Part shown: in pieces, positions 42,289-49,039 of the stretch
How positions within the stretch are numbered: position 1 is the first letter of the stretch
Layout of the letters: every line of letters begins with the position of its first letter
Assembly (NCBI RefSeq): GCF_000407365.1
Contig: NZ_ASVU01000001.1
Location: 1,645,501 to 1,709,500 of the forward strand
From: Enterococcus asini ATCC 700915
GTDB lineage: Bacteria; Bacillota; Bacilli; Lactobacillales; Enterococcaceae
Direction: 5' to 3'
DNA: 64,000 bases
Notes under the pieces: model-generated
What the model was told of the DNA's origin: nothing
Seen by the model: the letters and a program-made list of their open reading frames with translations, nothing else
The model's database searches: none
Program-made: the position numbers and the translations under genes

Positions 42289-43737
42289 ATGACGGTAATT
42301 ACAAATAATTTGGTTACGATTATACTGGTGGCAAATATCTTGCTGTCCTTTATCATCGTGTTTCGGGAACGTCGGGATACGGCGCAGACCTGGGCGTGGT
42401 TGTTGGTTTTGAATTTTATTCCTGTGGTGGGATTTGTTTTGTATTTCTTCTTTGGTCGCGGAATCTCCAAAGATAAGATTTTTGACTTAAAGATGCAAGG
42501 AAAAATCGGGATGAATGTGGAAATCGAAGAGCAGCAGCAAGCTTTGCAGCGTGACCTTTTCCCACAACCTCCCACGGCTCGAGTAGATGCCAAACAACTG
42601 ATTTACATGCTGACGGTTTATGAACGAGCTTTGTACACCACGACCAATCAGGTACAGCTATTTACCGATGGGCGTGAAAAATTCGACGCCTTGCTGGCAG
42701 ATATCGCCAAAGCTAAAAATCACATTCACATGGAATACTATATTTTTCGCGGGGACCACTTGGGGCAGGAACTCTTGGCAGCCTTAGTCGCCGCCGCTAA
42801 AAAAGGGGTTAAGGTCCGGCTCTTGTTAGACGCCTGGGGTTCTAACGGGGTGGCCGGTCATTTCTTTGAGCCATTGAAAGCCGTGGGCGGAGAAGTTACT
42901 TTTTTCTTTCCCCTGTTTGTGCCGTATTTGAATCCTCGGATTAACTACCGAAACCACCGGAAAATCGTGGTGATCGACGGTCAGATTGGGTATACCGGGG
43001 GCTTCAATGTAGGGGATGAATACTTAGGTTTGGTCGAAAAATTTGGCTATTGGCGGGACAACCATCTGCGGATTGCCGGGCCGGCGATTTACAGTTTGCA
43101 AAACCGGTTTTTGATGGACTGGAACTCCCAGCATCAAGATGAAATCTCCTATGCCAAGAAATATTTCCCTGAGCTGGAAGAAACCGGGCAAGTCGCCATG
43201 CAAGTGGTGACCAGTGGCCCGGATTCGGATTATCAGCAGATTAAGATGACTTATTTAAAGATGATCAATATGGCGAAAAAAGAAATCTTGATTCAAACGC
43301 CTTACTACATTCCCGATGGCTCCATTCACGAGGCCTTGAAATTAGCATTGCTTTCTGGAGTGCGAGTGGAGTTACAGATTCCCAATAAACCGGATCATCC
43401 CCTAGTGTACTGGGCTACTTATTCCTTTGCGGCGGAACTCTTGGCTTATGGAGCAGAGGTGGCCACTTATGAAAATGGCTTTATTCATGCCAAGACCATG
43501 GTTATCGACGGGGGCATTGCTTCCGTAGGCTCGGCGAATATCGACGTGCGGTCCTTCCGCTTGGATTTTGAAGTTAACTGCATCCTCTATGATGCGAAAA
43601 TGGCCCAAGAAGTCCGTCAAGCATTCTTTAGAGACCAGCGCTTGTGTCAGCCACTGACGGAAGAACGCTATCAACAGCGAGGGGTAATCATCAAATTAAA
43701 AGAAGGTTTGGCCCGTTTGATTTCGCCATTACTTTAG
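42289..43737 (+). CDS. cls: Cardiolipin synthase (PLD family)
   Basis: 482 residues. Joins two phosphatidylglycerols to cardiolipin at the membrane. Two N-terminal transmembrane helices (TIILVANILLSFIIVF and WLLVLNFIPVVGFVLYFFFG), then two phospholipase-D domains with HKD motifs: NHRKIVVIDGQIGYTGG (about residue 223) and HAKTMVIDGGIASVGSANID (about 403). ATG 42289 follows GGGGGACGGAAA. Cardiolipin synthase mutations accompany daptomycin resistance in enterococci, which makes its closeness to liaXYZ noteworthy though not proof of linkage. Confidence 0.96.
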   Translation: MTVITNNLVTIILVANILLSFIIVFRERRDTAQTWAWLLVLNFIPVVGFVLYFFFGRGISKDKIFDLKMQGKIGMNVEIEEQQQALQRDLFPQPPTARVDAKQLIYMLTVYERALYTTTNQVQLFTDGREKFDALLADIAKAKNHIHMEYYIFRGDHLGQELLAALVAAAKKGVKVRLLLDAWGSNGVAGHFFEPLKAVGGEVTFFFPLFVPYLNPRINYRNHRKIVVIDGQIGYTGGFNVGDEYLGLVEKFGYWRDNHLRIAGPAIYSLQNRFLMDWNSQHQDEISYAKKYFPELEETGQVAMQVVTSGPDSDYQQIKMTYLKMINMAKKEILIQTPYYIPDGSIHEALKLALLSGVRVELQIPNKPDHPLVYWATYSFAAELLAYGAEVATYENGFIHAKTMVIDGGIASVGSANIDVRSFRLDFEVNCILYDAKMAQEVRQAFFRDQRLCQPLTEERYQQRGVIIKLKEGLARLISPLL

Positions 43738-43768
43738 GGAATTTTTGTCTTTCGGAAATAATTGCAAT

Positions 43769-43796
43769 TTGCAGGAGCCTGACTTTTTGGTAGAAT
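43769..43796 (+). promoter_or_regulatory. Predicted promoter of pstS
   Basis: TTGCAG (43769-43774), 16 bases, TAGAAT (43791-43796). No TTTACA repeats typical of a PhoP box were found in front of pstS. Confidence 0.5.
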
Positions 43797-43871
43797 GAAC
43801 TTGTTTGTGGCATACCGCGGACAATTAATCGCCTGTCATGAAACAGGTAAGATGCGTGAAGGAGCAATGAA

Positions 43872-44723
43872 ATGAAAAAAATCGTAATCGCCTTGGGCTT
43901 ATCCATGGTTCTCCTCCTTAGTGGCTGTGCCAAATGGATCGACCGAGGAGAGTCCATCACCGCGGTGGGGTCTTCCGCCTTGCAACCTTTAGTGGAAACC
44001 GTGGCTGAAGAATACCAAACCAAAAATCCAGGGAAATTTATCAACGTCCAAGGGGGCGGTAGTGGGACTGGTTTGAGCCAAGTCCAATCCGGTGCGGTGG
44101 AAATCGGCAATTCGGACTTGTTTGCAGAAGAAAAAAGTGGGATTCGCGCGGATGAACTTTTGGATCATAAAGTGGCCGTAGTGGGCATCACCCCCATCGT
44201 CAATAAAAAAGTCGGGGTCACCAACTTAACCATGGACCAGCTAAAAGGCATTTTTCTAGGAGAGATTACCAACTGGAAAGACGTCGGCGGCGTGGACCAG
44301 AAGATCGTCGTGCTAAACCGGGCGGCCGGTTCTGGAACCCGGGGAACCTTTGAAAAATGGGTTCTAGACGGAGAAACAGCGATTCCTGCTCAGGAACAAG
44401 ACTCCAGTGGCATGGTGCGTCAAATCGTTTCTGATACACCCGGGGCCATTAGCTACGTGGCGTTTTCCTATGTGACCGATGATGTGATGACGTTAAAACT
44501 AGAAGGTGTCGCACCAACGGATGAAAATGTGACCACGAATCAATGGCCGATTTGGGCTTATGAACACATGTATACTAAGGAAAATCCGGATGCATTGACA
44601 AAGGAATTCTTAGCGTACATTCTTTCTGATGAAGTTCAAGAAAAAATCGTAGGGGAATTAGGTTATATCCCGGTTTCTGCTATGCAGGTCGAACGGGATT
44701 GGCAAGGCAATGTAATCGACTAA
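43872..44723 (+). CDS. pstS: Phosphate-binding lipoprotein PstS
   Basis: 283 residues. Signal peptide with lipobox LSGC (Cys19), so it is a membrane-anchored lipoprotein that captures phosphate for the Pst transporter. Ligand pattern ITAVGSSALQPLVE and GGGSGTGLSQV with Ser/Gly/Thr contacts, and later NRAAGSGTRGTFE and ISYVAFSYV, are PstS hallmarks. ATG 43872 follows AAGGAGCAATGAA; ATG 43869 would also be in frame? it is not (the preceding ATGAA reads a different phase), so 43872 stands. It is separated from pstC by 212 bases with a PhoP box and a long hairpin. Confidence 0.95.
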   Translation: MKKIVIALGLSMVLLLSGCAKWIDRGESITAVGSSALQPLVETVAEEYQTKNPGKFINVQGGGSGTGLSQVQSGAVEIGNSDLFAEEKSGIRADELLDHKVAVVGITPIVNKKVGVTNLTMDQLKGIFLGEITNWKDVGGVDQKIVVLNRAAGSGTRGTFEKWVLDGETAIPAQEQDSSGMVRQIVSDTPGAISYVAFSYVTDDVMTLKLEGVAPTDENVTTNQWPIWAYEHMYTKENPDALTKEFLAYILSDEVQEKIVGELGYIPVSAMQVERDWQGNVID

Positions 44724-44725
44724 AC

Positions 44726-44753
44726 TTTACATAAACTTTACAATAAGTTTATA
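44726..44753 (+). promoter_or_regulatory. PhoP box (three direct repeats) between pstS and pstC
   Basis: TTTACA (44726), TTTACA (44737) and TTTATA (44748) are spaced exactly 11 bp apart, the periodicity of PhoP binding sites in Bacillus. They begin 3 bases after the pstS stop codon. Confidence 0.72.
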
Positions 44754-44789
44754 GGAAATTGACGTTGCTCTCCTAAAATAAAATAGGAT

Positions 44790-44861
44790 GAAAAAAGCAG
44801 GGAGACAGGGCGCGTTCTTCTCCGCCAGGGGCGTGAAGAGGCGAGGTCTGCTGCTTTTTTC
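44790..44861 (+). terminator. Long hairpin with T-run between pstS and pstC
   Basis: GAAAAAAGCAGGGAGAC pairs with GTCTGCTGCTTTTTTC over a long insert that can fold further. It is followed by T-run and could stop transcripts from pstS or attenuate those for pstC. Confidence 0.7.
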
Positions 44862-44935
44862 AGGTCTGGCTTTGCCGTTTGCAAAAGCTTTTATGCCCCA
44901 GGTCGCTTCAGTGGGGAAATGAAGGAGGAATTGTT

Positions 44936-45862
44936 TTGGACGAAGATGTGAAAAAAGCGCTATTAACAAAATCCAAGCGCGCTCGCATGGAACAACGAGG
45001 AAAACTGATTAGTTTTTTGTGTATCGCCCTAATCGTGGCGGTGGTTGTCTCCATCTTTTACTTTGTTGCCAGCAAGGGTTTGGCGACGTTTTTTAAGGAT
45101 AAGGTCAATGTATTCTCCTTTCTTTTTGGAACGGACTGGAATCCGAGCCAGCTAGGACCGGATGGAAAGCCTCAAGTGGGGGCTTTGCCCATGATTGCCG
45201 GCTCCTTTATCGTAACGTTCCTTTCCGCCATTGTAGCGACGCCTTTTGCTATTGGGGCGGCAGTCTTTATGACGGAAATCTCTCCTAAACAAGGACAAAA
45301 AATCTTACAACCGGTTATCGAATTACTGGTGGGGATTCCTTCAGTAGTTTATGGGTTTATCGGTCTATCCGTGATTGTCCCGGCCGTGCGCTCTGTATTT
45401 GGTGGCACCGGCTTCGGGATTTTAGCCGGAACCTTTGTCTTGTTCATCATGATTTTGCCCACGGTGACCACTATGACCGTGGATGCTTTAAAAGCTGTGC
45501 CTCGGCATTATCGGGAAGCGTCCTTGGCCTTAGGAGCGACCCGCTGGCAGACGATTTATAAAGTGGTCTTGCGGGCGGCCGTTCCGGGTATTTTAACCGC
45601 GGTGGTCTTCGGTATGGCTCGGGCCTTTGGGGAAGCGTTGGCTATCCAAATGGTAATCGGGAACGCGGCTTTAATGCCAAATTCCTTGGTAACTCCGGCC
45701 TCTACTTTGACTTCGATTTTGACCATGGGTATCGGGAATACGATTATGGGTACGGTAGAAAACAACGTACTGTGGTCCTTAGCCTTGATTCTCTTACTAA
45801 TGTCACTACTCTTCAATATCATCATCCGCTTGATTGGCAAAAAGGGGGCCTTTAGCAAATGA
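44936..45862 (+). CDS. pstC: Phosphate ABC transporter permease PstC
   Basis: 308 residues with six membrane helices. TTG 44936 is chosen: AAGGAGG at 44922-44928 lies 7 bases before it, while no ATG is at proper distance and a longer frame (44879) has no ribosome site. Signature LVGIPSVVYGFIGL, VDALKAVPRHYREASLALGATRWQTIYKV (EAA loop). N-terminal cytoplasmic segment (DEDVKKALLTKSKRARMEQR) precedes the first helix. Stop overlaps the pstA start by 4 bases. With PstA it forms the membrane channel. Confidence 0.95.
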   Translation: MDEDVKKALLTKSKRARMEQRGKLISFLCIALIVAVVVSIFYFVASKGLATFFKDKVNVFSFLFGTDWNPSQLGPDGKPQVGALPMIAGSFIVTFLSAIVATPFAIGAAVFMTEISPKQGQKILQPVIELLVGIPSVVYGFIGLSVIVPAVRSVFGGTGFGILAGTFVLFIMILPTVTTMTVDALKAVPRHYREASLALGATRWQTIYKVVLRAAVPGILTAVVFGMARAFGEALAIQMVIGNAALMPNSLVTPASTLTSILTMGIGNTIMGTVENNVLWSLALILLLMSLLFNIIIRLIGKKGAFSK

Positions 45863-46743
45863 ATGCGAAACGTTCGGATAAAATCGCCACTGGAGTGCTT
45901 TATGCCGTTTCAGGGACTATCGTTTTAATCTTAGCTGCCTTGCTGTTGTACATCTTGGTGCGGGGGGTACCCCATATTTCTTGGGAGTTCTTGACCGCTC
46001 CTTCCAAAGCCTATCAAGAAGGCGGTGGGATTGGCATCCAGTTGTTTAACTCCTTTTACTTGCTGTTGATCACCATGATTATCAGTTTTCCCATTTCTTT
46101 AGGGGCGGGAATTTATTTGTCTGAATACGCCAAGAAAAATTGGCTGACAGACGTGATTCGCACTTCCATTGAAATCTTAAGTTCCTTGCCTTCTGTCGTA
46201 GTGGGGCTGTTTGGTTTCTTAGTTTTCGTAATTCAGTTTGGCTACGGCTTTTCCATTATCTCTGGCGCCTTGGCTTTAACCTTTTTCAATCTGCCACTGT
46301 TAACTAGAAACGTGGAAGAATCTTTACGGGCAATCCACTACACGCAACGGGAAGCCGGCTTAGCACTAGGTTTGTCCCGGTGGGAGACGGTTTTGCGAAT
46401 CGTAGTGCCGGAAGCTACTCCAGGGATTTTAACCGGGATTATCTTAAGCTCTGGCCGAATTTTTGGGGAAGCCGCAGCGCTGATCTACACTGCCGGGCAA
46501 AGCGCACCGGCTTTGGATTTCTCCAACTGGAATCCACTAAGTGTGTCGAGTCCCATTAGCATCTTCCGGCAAGCGGAAACTTTGGCCGTGCATATTTGGA
46601 AGATCAATACCGAGGGCACGATGCCAGATGGCGCAGCAGTTTCTGCCGGTGCCTCTGCCGTGCTGATCATTGCCGTGCTCTTGTTTAACTTCGCAGCTCG
46701 GGCTGTGGGCAAACGCTTGTATAAGAAAATGACTTCCGCATAG
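45859..46743 (+). CDS. pstA: Phosphate ABC transporter permease PstA
   Basis: 294 residues with six membrane helices. Motif SSLPSVVVGLFGFLVFVIQFG and EAA loop ESLRAIHYTQREAGLALGLSRWETVLRI are the conserved features. ATG 45859 overlaps the pstC stop (ATGA), so the two are translated together. It continues into pstB1 after 14 bases. Confidence 0.96.
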   Translation: MNAKRSDKIATGVLYAVSGTIVLILAALLLYILVRGVPHISWEFLTAPSKAYQEGGGIGIQLFNSFYLLLITMIISFPISLGAGIYLSEYAKKNWLTDVIRTSIEILSSLPSVVVGLFGFLVFVIQFGYGFSIISGALALTFFNLPLLTRNVEESLRAIHYTQREAGLALGLSRWETVLRIVVPEATPGILTGIILSSGRIFGEAAALIYTAGQSAPALDFSNWNPLSVSSPISIFRQAETLAVHIWKINTEGTMPDGAAVSAGASAVLIIAVLLFNFAARAVGKRLYKKMTSA

Positions 46744-46757
46744 ATTGGAGCAAAACG

Positions 46758-47561
46758 ATGAGTTACGATATGAATGATCGCCATTTGATCACCTTTGATA
46801 AAGATGACAAGGTTGCCTTGTACACGGAAGACTTAAAGGTCTGGTACGGGCAAAACGAAGCCATCCATGGGGTGGACTTAGAATTTGAAAAAAATTGTAT
46901 CACGGCTTTGATTGGGCCTTCTGGTTCCGGGAAATCAACTTACTTGCGGTCTTTGAACCGGATGAATGATGGAATCTCTGGCACTAACGTTACTGGGAAA
47001 ATCATGTACAAAGATGTAGATGTCAATCGCAAAGACATCGATGTCTACGAAATGCGCAAACGCATTGGCATGGTGTTTCAACGGCCAAATCCTTTTAGTA
47101 AGTCGATTTATGAAAATATCACTTTTGCCCTAAAGCGCCACGGGGAGCGGGACAAACAAAAGTTGGACGAAATCGTGGAATCAAGCTTGAAGCAAGCCGC
47201 TTTGTGGGAGCAAGTGAAAGACAATTTGCATAAAAGCGCATTGGCATTATCCGGGGGACAGCAACAACGCCTGTGTATCGCCCGGGCGATTGCCATGAAA
47301 CCAGATATCTTGCTTTTGGATGAACCGGCTTCTGCTCTGGATCCGATTTCCACCGGGACCGTGGAAGAAACCTTAGTCAATTTGAAAGAAAACTATACGA
47401 TTATCATTGTGACTCACAATATGCAACAAGCCGCTCGGATTAGCGATTACACCGCCTTTTTCTATATGGGCAGTGTATTGGAATACGATGAAACCCGAAA
47501 AATCTTTACCCGGCCGAAGATCAAGGCCACGGAAGATTACGTATCAGGGCACTTTGGCTAA
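46758..47561 (+). CDS. pstB: Phosphate ABC transporter ATPase PstB, first copy
   Basis: 267 residues. Walker A GPSGSGKSTYLRSLNRMND, signature [14 protein letters not shown], Walker B LLLDEPASALDPIS. Has a longer N-terminus (MSYDMNDRHLITFDKDDKVALY) than the next PstB. ATG 46758 follows TTGGAG. Two pstB genes in a row are normal in Lactobacillales; which copy supplies ATP hydrolysis under which condition is unknown. 12 bases separate it from pstB2. Confidence 0.95.
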   Translation: MSYDMNDRHLITFDKDDKVALYTEDLKVWYGQNEAIHGVDLEFEKNCITALIGPSGSGKSTYLRSLNRMNDGISGTNVTGKIMYKDVDVNRKDIDVYEMRKRIGMVFQRPNPFSKSIYENITFALKRHGERDKQKLDEIVESSLKQAALWEQVKDNLHKSALALSGGQQQRLCIARAIAMKPDILLLDEPASALDPISTGTVEETLVNLKENYTIIIVTHNMQQAARISDYTAFFYMGSVLEYDETRKIFTRPKIKATEDYVSGHFG

Positions 47562-47573
47562 GGAGGAAGCGGC

Positions 47574-48332
47574 ATGTCTGAATCATTGATTTCATCACAA
47601 GATTTACATTTGTATTACGGTAAAAAAGAAGCCTTAAAGGGTATTACCATGGGCTTTGAAGAAAATCATATTACGGCATTGATCGGTCCTTCCGGCTGTG
47701 GCAAGTCGACTTACTTGCGGACTTTGAACCGGATGAATGACTTGATTCCCGGAGTGACCATTACGGGCAATGTCCAATACAAAGGCAACGACATTTACAG
47801 TCCGAAACAAGACATCGTCGAGTTGCGCAAAGAAATCGGCATGGTCTTCCAACAACCGAATCCTTTTCCATTTTCCATTTACGAAAATGTCATCTATGGG
47901 TTAAAATTAAAAGGAGAAAAGGACAAAGAGAAACTGGACCAAGTGGTAGAAGAAAGTCTCAAGGCGGCATCTGTTTGGGATGACGTGAAAGACAAGCTTC
48001 ACACCAGTGCCCTGTCACTATCCGGTGGCCAACAACAGCGGGTTTGTATCGCTCGGGTGTTGGCGGTGGATCCGAAAATCATCCTTTTAGATGAACCGAC
48101 CAGTGCCTTAGACCCGATTTCTTCCGGGAAGATCGAGAACACGCTGTTTCATCTGAAAGAGCGCTACACCATGATCATCGTGACGCACAATATGTCCCAA
48201 GCCTCTCGGATATCCGATAAGACTGCCTTTTTCTTAGACGGCAATTTAATCGAATTTGACGATACCAAGAAGATTTTCCTAGAACCAAAGAAAAAAGAAA
48301 CAGAGGATTACATTTCTGGCCGTTTTGGCTAA
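47574..48332 (+). CDS. pstB: Phosphate ABC transporter ATPase PstB, second copy
   Basis: 252 residues. Walker [20 protein letters not shown], signature [14 protein letters not shown], Walker [15 protein letters not shown]. The two copies share the same framework but differ at many positions, so the duplication is old and not an assembly artefact. ATG 47574 follows AAGGAGGAAGCGGC. phoU follows after about 29 bases. Confidence 0.95.
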
Positions 48333-48361
48333 TAGTGAGGAGAAAGCGAGGAGTAAAGGTT

Positions 48362-49039
48362 ATGTTGCGGACACAGTTTGAAGAGGAATTGCTCAATCTC
48401 CACAATCAGTTTTACGAAATGGGGATGATGGTAAGTAATGCCGTGCATAAATCGGTAAAAGCTTATATTAAGCACGATAAGGAATTAGCCCGATCAGTGA
48501 TCGATCACGATATCGAGATCAATGATATGGAAGTCCGTTTGGAGAAGAAAAGCTTTGAAATGATTGCTTTGCAACAGCCGGTGACCACCGACTTGCGGAT
48601 GATCATCACTGTCATGAAAGCCAGCTCCGACTTAGAGCGTATGGCAGATCACGCGGTATCCATTGCCAAGTCGACTATCCGAGTGAAAGGGGAAACTCGG
48701 ATTCCGGAAATCGAAAAGCAAATTTCTGATATGAGTGATTACGTGAAAAAAATGGTGGACAATGTGTTGATTGCCTACGTGAAAACCAACGAAAAAGATG
48801 CCCGCTTGATTGCGGATATGGATACCCGGATTAATGACTACTATTCAGAAATCTATCATGAAGCCATTAAGTCCATGCAGGAAAATCCGGCGACCGTCAT
48901 TAGCGGGAGTGACTATCTATCCGTAGCCCAATATTTGGAACGCATTGGAGATTATGTGACCAATATCTGCGAGTGGATCGTCTACTTGGCTACCGGTAAA
49001 ATTACCGAGTTGAACTCCAACCATGATGAAATGGTGTAA
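48362..49039 (+). CDS. phoU: PhoU, phosphate transport regulator
   Basis: 225 residues. Two PhoU three-helix repeats with the metal-binding pattern EIEINDMEVRLE and DLERMADHAVSIAKS, then a second copy (ADMDTRINDYYSEIYHE, YLERIGDYVTNICEW). PhoU restrains Pst uptake and the Pho signalling kinase. ATG 48362 is preceded by CGAGGAG; the longer frame from 48335 is less likely. End of the pst operon; a terminator follows. Confidence 0.95.
   Translation: MLRTQFEEELLNLHNQFYEMGMMVSNAVHKSVKAYIKHDKELARSVIDHDIEINDMEVRLEKKSFEMIALQQPVTTDLRMIITVMKASSDLERMADHAVSIAKSTIRVKGETRIPEIEKQISDMSDYVKKMVDNVLIAYVKTNEKDARLIADMDTRINDYYSEIYHEAIKSMQENPATVISGSDYLSVAQYLERIGDYVTNICEWIVYLATGKITELNSNHDEMV

Follow-up and report, generated by a model that had tools for sequence, protein, structure and literature searches.

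In Bacillus subtilis, the phosphate transporter operon pstSCABB is PhoP/PnpR-controlled, and in the standard Firmicutes layout the box for the regulator lies before pstS and drives the entire operon. In Lactococcus, the genes for two binding proteins, pstF and pstE, are arranged in tandem. PHO boxes have been described as being built from an 11-base repeat unit (PMC4415409, excerpt). Streptococcus pneumoniae has the two systems Pst1 and Pst2, one of them a constitutive and the other a PnpR-controlled transporter (PMC4913102, excerpt). In E. faecalis, EF1759 has been described as a phosphate-binding lipoprotein (PMC4501811, excerpt) and EF1758 as a transporter component (PMC7701990, excerpt). 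For E. faecium, cross-talk between VanS and PhoB is reported in a review (PMC4415409, excerpt), so that it matters which genes are true Pho targets in this species. Among the matches listed in the open-access literature, none was a study of how Pho controls pst in enterococci.

We analyzed the pst locus in a stretch of 64,000 nucleotides from Enterococcus asini ATCC 700915 (contig NZ_ASVU01000001.1, positions 1,645,501 to 1,709,500), in the following called the window. Like the PhoP/PnpR-controlled pst operons of Firmicutes, the locus has TTTACA-like repeats at 11-base pitch that are predicted to activate a phosphate ABC transporter. In the layout of the B. subtilis type the box precedes pstS, whereas in the window it follows the pstS gene that adjoins pstC (pstS1) and would drive pstC and the genes beyond it, a second gene (pstS2) standing under a separate box. 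Two PstS paralogues per transporter are also present in Lactococcus (pstF-pstE), Floricoccus, Isobaculum and genome G051. In these, both genes lie before pstC, whereas the family of the window has the pstS2 type on its own at another place and the pstS1 type without a Pho box (one exception, Enterococcus sp. PF1-24, was found). S. pneumoniae, as portrayed in the excerpt, resembles the window in apparently combining one constitutive and one PnpR-controlled phosphate system, but it doubles whole transporters, whereas the genome analyzed here doubles the binding protein only, with one transporter that is presumably shared. We consider it probable that the pst locus consists of two transcription units, with pstS1 as a housekeeping gene, and pstCABB-phoU and the stand-alone pstS2 gene under Pho control.

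Organization of the pst locus

The plus strand of the window carries secA, prfB, ftsE, ftsX, a cardiolipin-synthase-type gene, pstS, pstC, pstA, two pstB-type genes, phoU and then liaX- and pspC-like genes. The putative liaX-like gene borders the pst locus. NCBIfam names pstS and pstC, and the other genes of the window carry putative names, partly based on similarity. The genes pstS, pstC, pstA, pstB and phoU follow each other on one strand in the order of a standard operon. The features of the locus are:

43768-43796, plus strand: predicted sigma-A-type promoter of pstS1, TTTGCA-17-TAGAAT, without Pho half-sites (promoter scan and comparison)
43872-44723, plus strand: pstS1, phosphate-binding lipoprotein gene adjoining pstC (TIGR02136, 311.1 bits, cut-off 206.6)
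44726-44764, plus strand: box of four PhoP-type half-sites with a pitch of 11 bases (TTTACA at 44726, TTTACA at 44737, TTTATA at 44748, TTGACG at 44759)
44774-44779, plus strand: putative -10 element TAAAAT, 9 bases past the last half-site
44789-44862, plus strand: terminator-like leader hairpin, -36.9 kcal/mol, with T-run at 44855-44860
44936-45862, plus strand: pstC with TTG start, at the head of the transporter unit presumed to be Pho-controlled (TIGR02138, 296 bits, cut-off 196.45)
45859-49039, plus strand: pstA, two pstB-type ATPase genes and phoU (open frames; names from similarity and gene order)

For pstC, we agree with an earlier interpretation of this DNA, made without database searches (the sequence-only reading), that the gene starts with the TTG at 44936; an in-frame TTG at 44879 would lengthen the frame.

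A Pho-type promoter between pstS1 and pstC

The pattern TTTACA-N5-TTTACA-N5-TTTATA, which had been reported directly after pstS, is indeed present as an exact match at 44726-44753. Two bases separate it from the TAA stop codon of pstS1 (44721-44723), and it lies in the 212-base gap between this stop codon and the TTG of pstC. With up to three mismatches allowed, the pattern has no other match in the window (expected number 0.07; at least one match in 6 of 100 shuffles). A relaxed three-repeat pattern matches the 2.57 Mb genome at a single place, which is the pstS1-pstC gap, and its reversed control has 0 matches. For a relaxed two-repeat pattern, nine sites were found in the genome versus four for the reversed control. 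Exact copies of TTTACA-N5-TTTACA are present in the genome at two sites only, the pstC promoter and the promoter of pstS2.

Alignment of the corresponding gaps of relatives showed half-sites at 11-base pitch, followed by nine bases and a -10 element of the type TANA(C/A)T. It was through this alignment that the fourth, weaker half-site (TTGACG at 44759) and the -10 element of the window were located. Last repeat, nine bases and -10 element could be placed in 65 of the 72 relatives with a box in the gap, the nine-base spacing being built into the search. Two sequence marks of a Pho promoter are found in the window, namely TTTACA-like repeats at 11-base pitch and a -10 element at fixed spacing without a -35 hexamer. 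We infer that PhoP binds to the box in the gap, and the Pho transcript is predicted to start near 44786. Two sigma-70-like matches from a simple promoter scan overlap the box (44699-44726 and 44716-44744); such matches occur at background frequency.

A promoter model in the form of a 54-base matrix was built from 65 loci of other species (62 distinct sites), with the window excluded. The model omits four of the 72 loci, in which no -10 element was found (L075, L103, L104, L112), and three mis-anchored ones (L039, L056, L083). Scores of the gap sites of relatives are in-sample, and scores of the window, of pstS1 and of pstS2 are out-of-sample. The gap site of the window reaches 43.7 bits, and the runner-up place on both strands of the 64 kb scores -14.9. 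Among the candidate sites in the genome, only those of pstC and pstS2 score above 0, and further Pho targets are therefore not claimed.

The best candidate for the regulator is a PnpS-like pair at C1:1541167-1543604. PnpS is the top family for its kinase (391.7 bits, just below the cut-off of 400), and the OmpR-type regulator gene that adjoins the kinase gene is below every cut-off shown. The best match to the PhoB/PhoR models, at C1:241995-244490, was rejected, as it resembles WalRK (YycF above cut-off; the kinase query was partial).

The upstream region of pstS1

The claim that no PhoP box lies before pstS held up. The best place in 400 upstream bases has a promoter-model score of -31.1, which is ordinary for the window, and the Pho box that a standard operon has before pstS is absent. 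In the 300 bases upstream of pstC-linked pstS genes, the two-repeat box score is 8-10 (of 12) in 77 of 78 loci and resembles that of resampled sequence. The single score of 11 comes from Isobaculum, in which a pstS2-type gene is linked to pstC. In this scoring, the assignment of start codons was loose in several loci, the upstream region of L077 falls within the gene itself, and the 300 bases of L082 were too short to include its box.

The sigma-A-type promoter of pstS1 was listed by a promoter scan of the window that gave 14 matches versus 11.3 expected, which is background. Comparison shows that a promoter with a 17-base spacer lies 25-100 bases upstream of pstS1 in 38 of 79 loci (including the window), versus 49 of 790 resampled sequences; none of this strict form was found upstream of pstS1 in 41 of the 79 loci. 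On the best reading, pstS1 would be a housekeeping gene that is independent of PhoP.

In the pstS1 leaders of PF1-24 and part of the avium group (L082:4245-4476, L053:3123-3310, L069:3003-3186), there are repeats near an element with TAGTTGAATGRTATACGGCAYGAAAATA; in L082 and L069, its copies are spaced by 102 or 156 bases. The exact pattern of this element occurs in five of 199 loci, three of them from one genome, and it has no Rfam match at gathering score.

A separate second binding-protein gene

A second pstS gene, pstS2, is located on the same contig at C1:136913-137698, 1.55 Mb away, and is 62% identical to pstS1. No other pst genes were found around it in the 3.8 kb examined, and immediately 5' of it there is a series of Pho half-sites. 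When the upstream regions of pstS2 from this genome and 29 relatives were scored, 12/12 was obtained in 14, 11/12 in 14 and 10/12 in two. While 28 of the 30 score 11-12, only eight of 390 resampled pstS1 upstream regions reach 11 and none reaches 12; the two scores of 10 are within chance. On the promoter model, 26 of the 30 exceed the highest background score in the window and four are below it, suggesting that the promoter design is alike in most. In G023 and G035, pstS2 lies about 6-7 kb 3' of pstC, so that "separate" is a more exact description than "distant".

These data bear on the proposal, made in the sequence-only reading, that phosphate starvation raises the transporter genes separately from the binding protein. 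As far as the transporter genes and the adjacent pstS are concerned, separate control is backed by the comparison. The sequence-only reading could not take account of pstS2, which lies outside the window and has a Pho-type promoter of its own; starvation therefore probably raises a binding protein too, which would not be PstS1.

Conservation of the layout

Eighty loci were fetched via pstC similarity from Enterococcus, Tetragenococcus, Pilibacter, Vagococcus, Isobaculum, Floricoccus and some uncultured bins, a set that overlaps in species with the 36 genomes of the family considered below. Two of them (L058, L113) had no pstS upstream and were omitted from the gap count (n = 78). The two-repeat box score in the pstS-pstC gap was 12/12 in 71 loci, 11/12 in one and 8/12 in six (PF1-24, two Vagococcus, Isobaculum and two Floricoccus). 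The comparison of pst loci, which had been named as a check for other enterococci, thus found the gap box in 72 of 78 loci; two of 390 resampled gaps reached 12. An ftsX/cls/prfB neighbourhood surrounds the pst genes in 65 of the 78 loci, with PF1-24 and 12 others outside it.

Among the 36 genomes of the family, the gap box was present in all 31 with a stand-alone pstS2 and in none of the five without (raw counts, kinship ignored). Its distance from pstC is at most 260 bases in 28 of the 31, and more than 260 bases in G006, G017 and G030. The five exceptions (G015, G016, G020, G022, G029) may represent only about three events. Enterococcus sp. PF1-24 (G020) has one pstS gene with the box 5' of it, and G029 has a pstS2-type gene that heads a second pst operon.

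Two observations were made on the side. A second pst locus with an upstream Pho-type box is found in G015, G016 and G029 (L166-L169, L171, L172), and there is no strict box at their ftsX-linked locus. In G022, the pstC-linked pstS (L170:3204-4051) seems broken, as its two matched pieces are separated by a stop and are in different frames. The genome yielded no further pstS.

In the wider order, none of 18 genomes had a strict box in the pstS-pstC gap, and among the fetched loci the gap layout is therefore seen in the family of the window only. This set leaves out G038, G047 and G053, and also G040 and G046, which have a distant pst type only. Seven of the 18 (G036, G041, G044, G048, G051, G054, G057) have a strict box 5' of the pstC-linked pstS or of the first gene of a tandem pair. 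The co-occurrence of gap box and stand-alone pstS2 breaks down outside the family of the window: G042, G049 and G055, which belong to another family, carry pstS2 as a separate gene and no strict box in the pstS1-pstC gap. Both the pstS1 and the pstS2 type are also found outside the family of the window. In Isobaculum and G051, a tandem of the two types precedes pstC, and each of the two genes has Pho-type sites 5' of it; in Floricoccus the tandem is in reverse order.

Separation of pstS1 from the box

A compact terminator lies between pstS1 and the box in nine loci, for example in E. dispar, E. canintestini, E. canis and E. hermanniensis; no terminator was found 5' of the box in the species of the window. 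The terminator scan covered pstS1-pstC gaps of less than 700 bases, from 70 of the 78 loci and the window, and no terminator-like hairpin was found in 49 of these 71 gaps; where the gap is short, transcripts of pstS1 may thus run on into pstC. In eight loci of the avium group, pstS1 and pstC are separated by 1.5-3.1 kb, and the box is at a constant 148-151 bases from pstC. The two loci read, from E. avium and MJM16, have genes between pstS1 and pstC, one of them on the opposite strand in MJM16. E. devriesei has kept the box, and pstS was not found within 6 kb of its pstC. The constant spacing in the avium group and the case of E. devriesei indicate that the box goes with pstC.

By eye, the inserts between pstS1 and pstC at L053:4167-5986 and L057:2861-5986 contain AraC-regulator and glyoxalase-type genes, and that of L057 also a minus-strand hydrolase-type gene.

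The leader hairpin

The long hairpin with a T-run that had been seen before pstC was recovered at 44789-44862, with 1 of 200 shuffles being equally stable. It has the structure of an intrinsic terminator, a stable hairpin followed by a T-run, with a long and bulged stem; it is absent from the output of a simple terminator scan with loops of 3-8. The fold of the entire stretch 44780-44935 has a z of only -1.28 (23 of 200 shuffles equally stable), and the significance is therefore that of the hairpin and not of the entire gap. Its position just past the predicted Pho start makes the hairpin a candidate leader terminator that would act on Pho transcripts. It might serve there as an attenuator, as a 5' stabiliser or as a partial terminator at which pstS1 transcripts end as well.

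The sister species E. diestrammenae and Enterococcus sp. CU9D share this feature, with hairpin and T-run at the matching place. In the species of the window, E. diestrammenae and CU9D, the T-run begins 75, 66 and 68 bases past the -10 element, and 4, 1 and 0 of 500 shuffles of the stretch from the -10 element to the T-run are equally stable, respectively. For CU9D, a differently cut stretch gave 14 of 200 equally stable shuffles versus the 0 of 500. The leaders of the three species are 49-61% identical and the promoters 80-91%; the hairpin structure is kept, although the sequence has changed. For the first 81 or fewer bases of the leader, 0 of 200 shuffles are equally stable in these three species, and 37 to 148 of 200 in seven others of the genus; the hairpin is thus present in three of ten species. 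The notion that box and hairpin form one unit was not borne out, as the box is widespread and the hairpin was found in those three species of the ten, and the hairpin is apparently newer than the box.

Several other candidates for the hairpin region were rejected. Rfam 15 had no gathering-score match in the window; the sole weak match in 43700-45000, snR67 (E 0.13, far below gathering, inside pstS), is noise. A mobile or repeated hairpin was dismissed, as the genome contains the 164-base stretch starting at 44785 only once (best other match 18 bases, E 0.68). So was a leader peptide from the ATG at 44788, whose frame passes through the hairpin; on visual inspection, this frame is not kept in the leaders of the two sister species.

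In E. caccae, E. moraviensis and relatives (L087, L089, L091, L093, L095), 230-491 bases lie between box and pstC, with several hairpins after the box, some of them repeated.

Discussion

In the arrangement with two transcription units, pstS1 would be transcribed from its own sigma-A-type promoter, with no dependence on PhoP. The genes pstC-pstA-pstB-pstB-phoU would be driven by the Pho promoter in the gap, where phosphorylated PhoP (PnpR) on the four 11-base repeats would substitute for a -35 element, and pstS2 would be driven by its own Pho promoter. With plentiful phosphate, PstS1 would be present and the transporter scarce. In starvation, PstCAB and PstS2 would increase jointly, so that the shared transporter would be fed mainly by PstS2. 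In E. asini and its two sister species, the Pho transcript would open with the terminator-like hairpin, and part of it would stop at about 60-75 bases unless RNA polymerase is allowed past. A more far-reaching version, which we regard as rather improbable, is that Enterococcaceae swap a housekeeping PstS1 and a starvation PstS2 on one transporter, and that in the clade of the window a newly evolved attenuator would release a starvation-induced small RNA of about 60-75 bases and place pstCAB under a second control, at the RNA level.

The same locus could be an ordinary operon with an internal booster. The sigma-A promoter would then give a transcript from pstS1 to phoU, the Pho promoter would only add pstC-phoU transcripts in starvation, and the hairpin would trim read-through, leaving more PstS1 than PstC. 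Many relatives do have a short gap free of terminator-like hairpins (the 49 of 71 gaps), and in ABC importers the binding protein is usually in excess over the membrane parts. Such an operon is at odds with the terminators 5' of the box in nine loci, with the genes inserted between pstS1 and the box in the avium group, and with E. devriesei, and we judge it to be unlikely. For the hairpin taken by itself, there is an explanation that is compatible with two units: it may be a plain terminator of pstS1 that lies 3' of the Pho promoter, partly passed by Pho transcripts and unregulated. The three hairpin species are without a compact terminator before the box, which several sister species have, and this would be in line with such a role; the T-run, however, is fixed at 66-75 bases past the -10 element in all three despite the diverged sequence. 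We see this explanation as quite possible, with somewhat less than an even chance of being correct.

Another idea of the sequence-only reading was a displacement of pstS relative to its operator. The comparison, in which most of the family shows the order pstS-box-pstC, lends no support to this as a recent or local event. An insertion of pstS1 between a Pho operator and pstC in the lineage of the window, or a move of pstS1 off its operator, would be in keeping with PF1-24, where the box precedes pstS1, and with the Pho-type sites 5' of both tandem pstS genes in Isobaculum and G051. With pstS1-box-pstC in nearly the entire family and the shared ftsX/cls/prfB neighbourhood in most loci, we hold it to be very improbable. 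PF1-24 is outside this neighbourhood, yet so are 12 other loci, and its location alone is thus no proof that PF1-24 is the derived case. Finally, the repeats in the gap might be a chance or functionless match. This explanation is contradicted by the shuffles and the uniqueness in window and genome, by conservation in the loci of relatives and by the promoter-model score; we rejected it, its probability being practically negligible.

As to the origin of the two-unit layout, the gap box could be the former promoter of a pstS2 gene that once lay between pstS1 and pstC, as one does in Isobaculum and G051. In a FastTree analysis of 145 pstS sequences, the pstS1 and pstS2 types separate; the root split has a support of 14 and several inner splits have less than 50, and because of this weak deep support the origin stays a suggestion.

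The two-unit arrangement provides a concrete wiring diagram for enterococcal phosphate uptake. It predicts that the annotated pstS gene adjoining pstC would not be a reporter of phosphate starvation, and that the separate pstS gene would be one. Since the pump genes and pstS2 are predicted to be Pho-switched and pstS1 appears to have an ordinary promoter, one pump may be served by two differently controlled binding proteins, which would make the family a testable case of two binding proteins on one importer.
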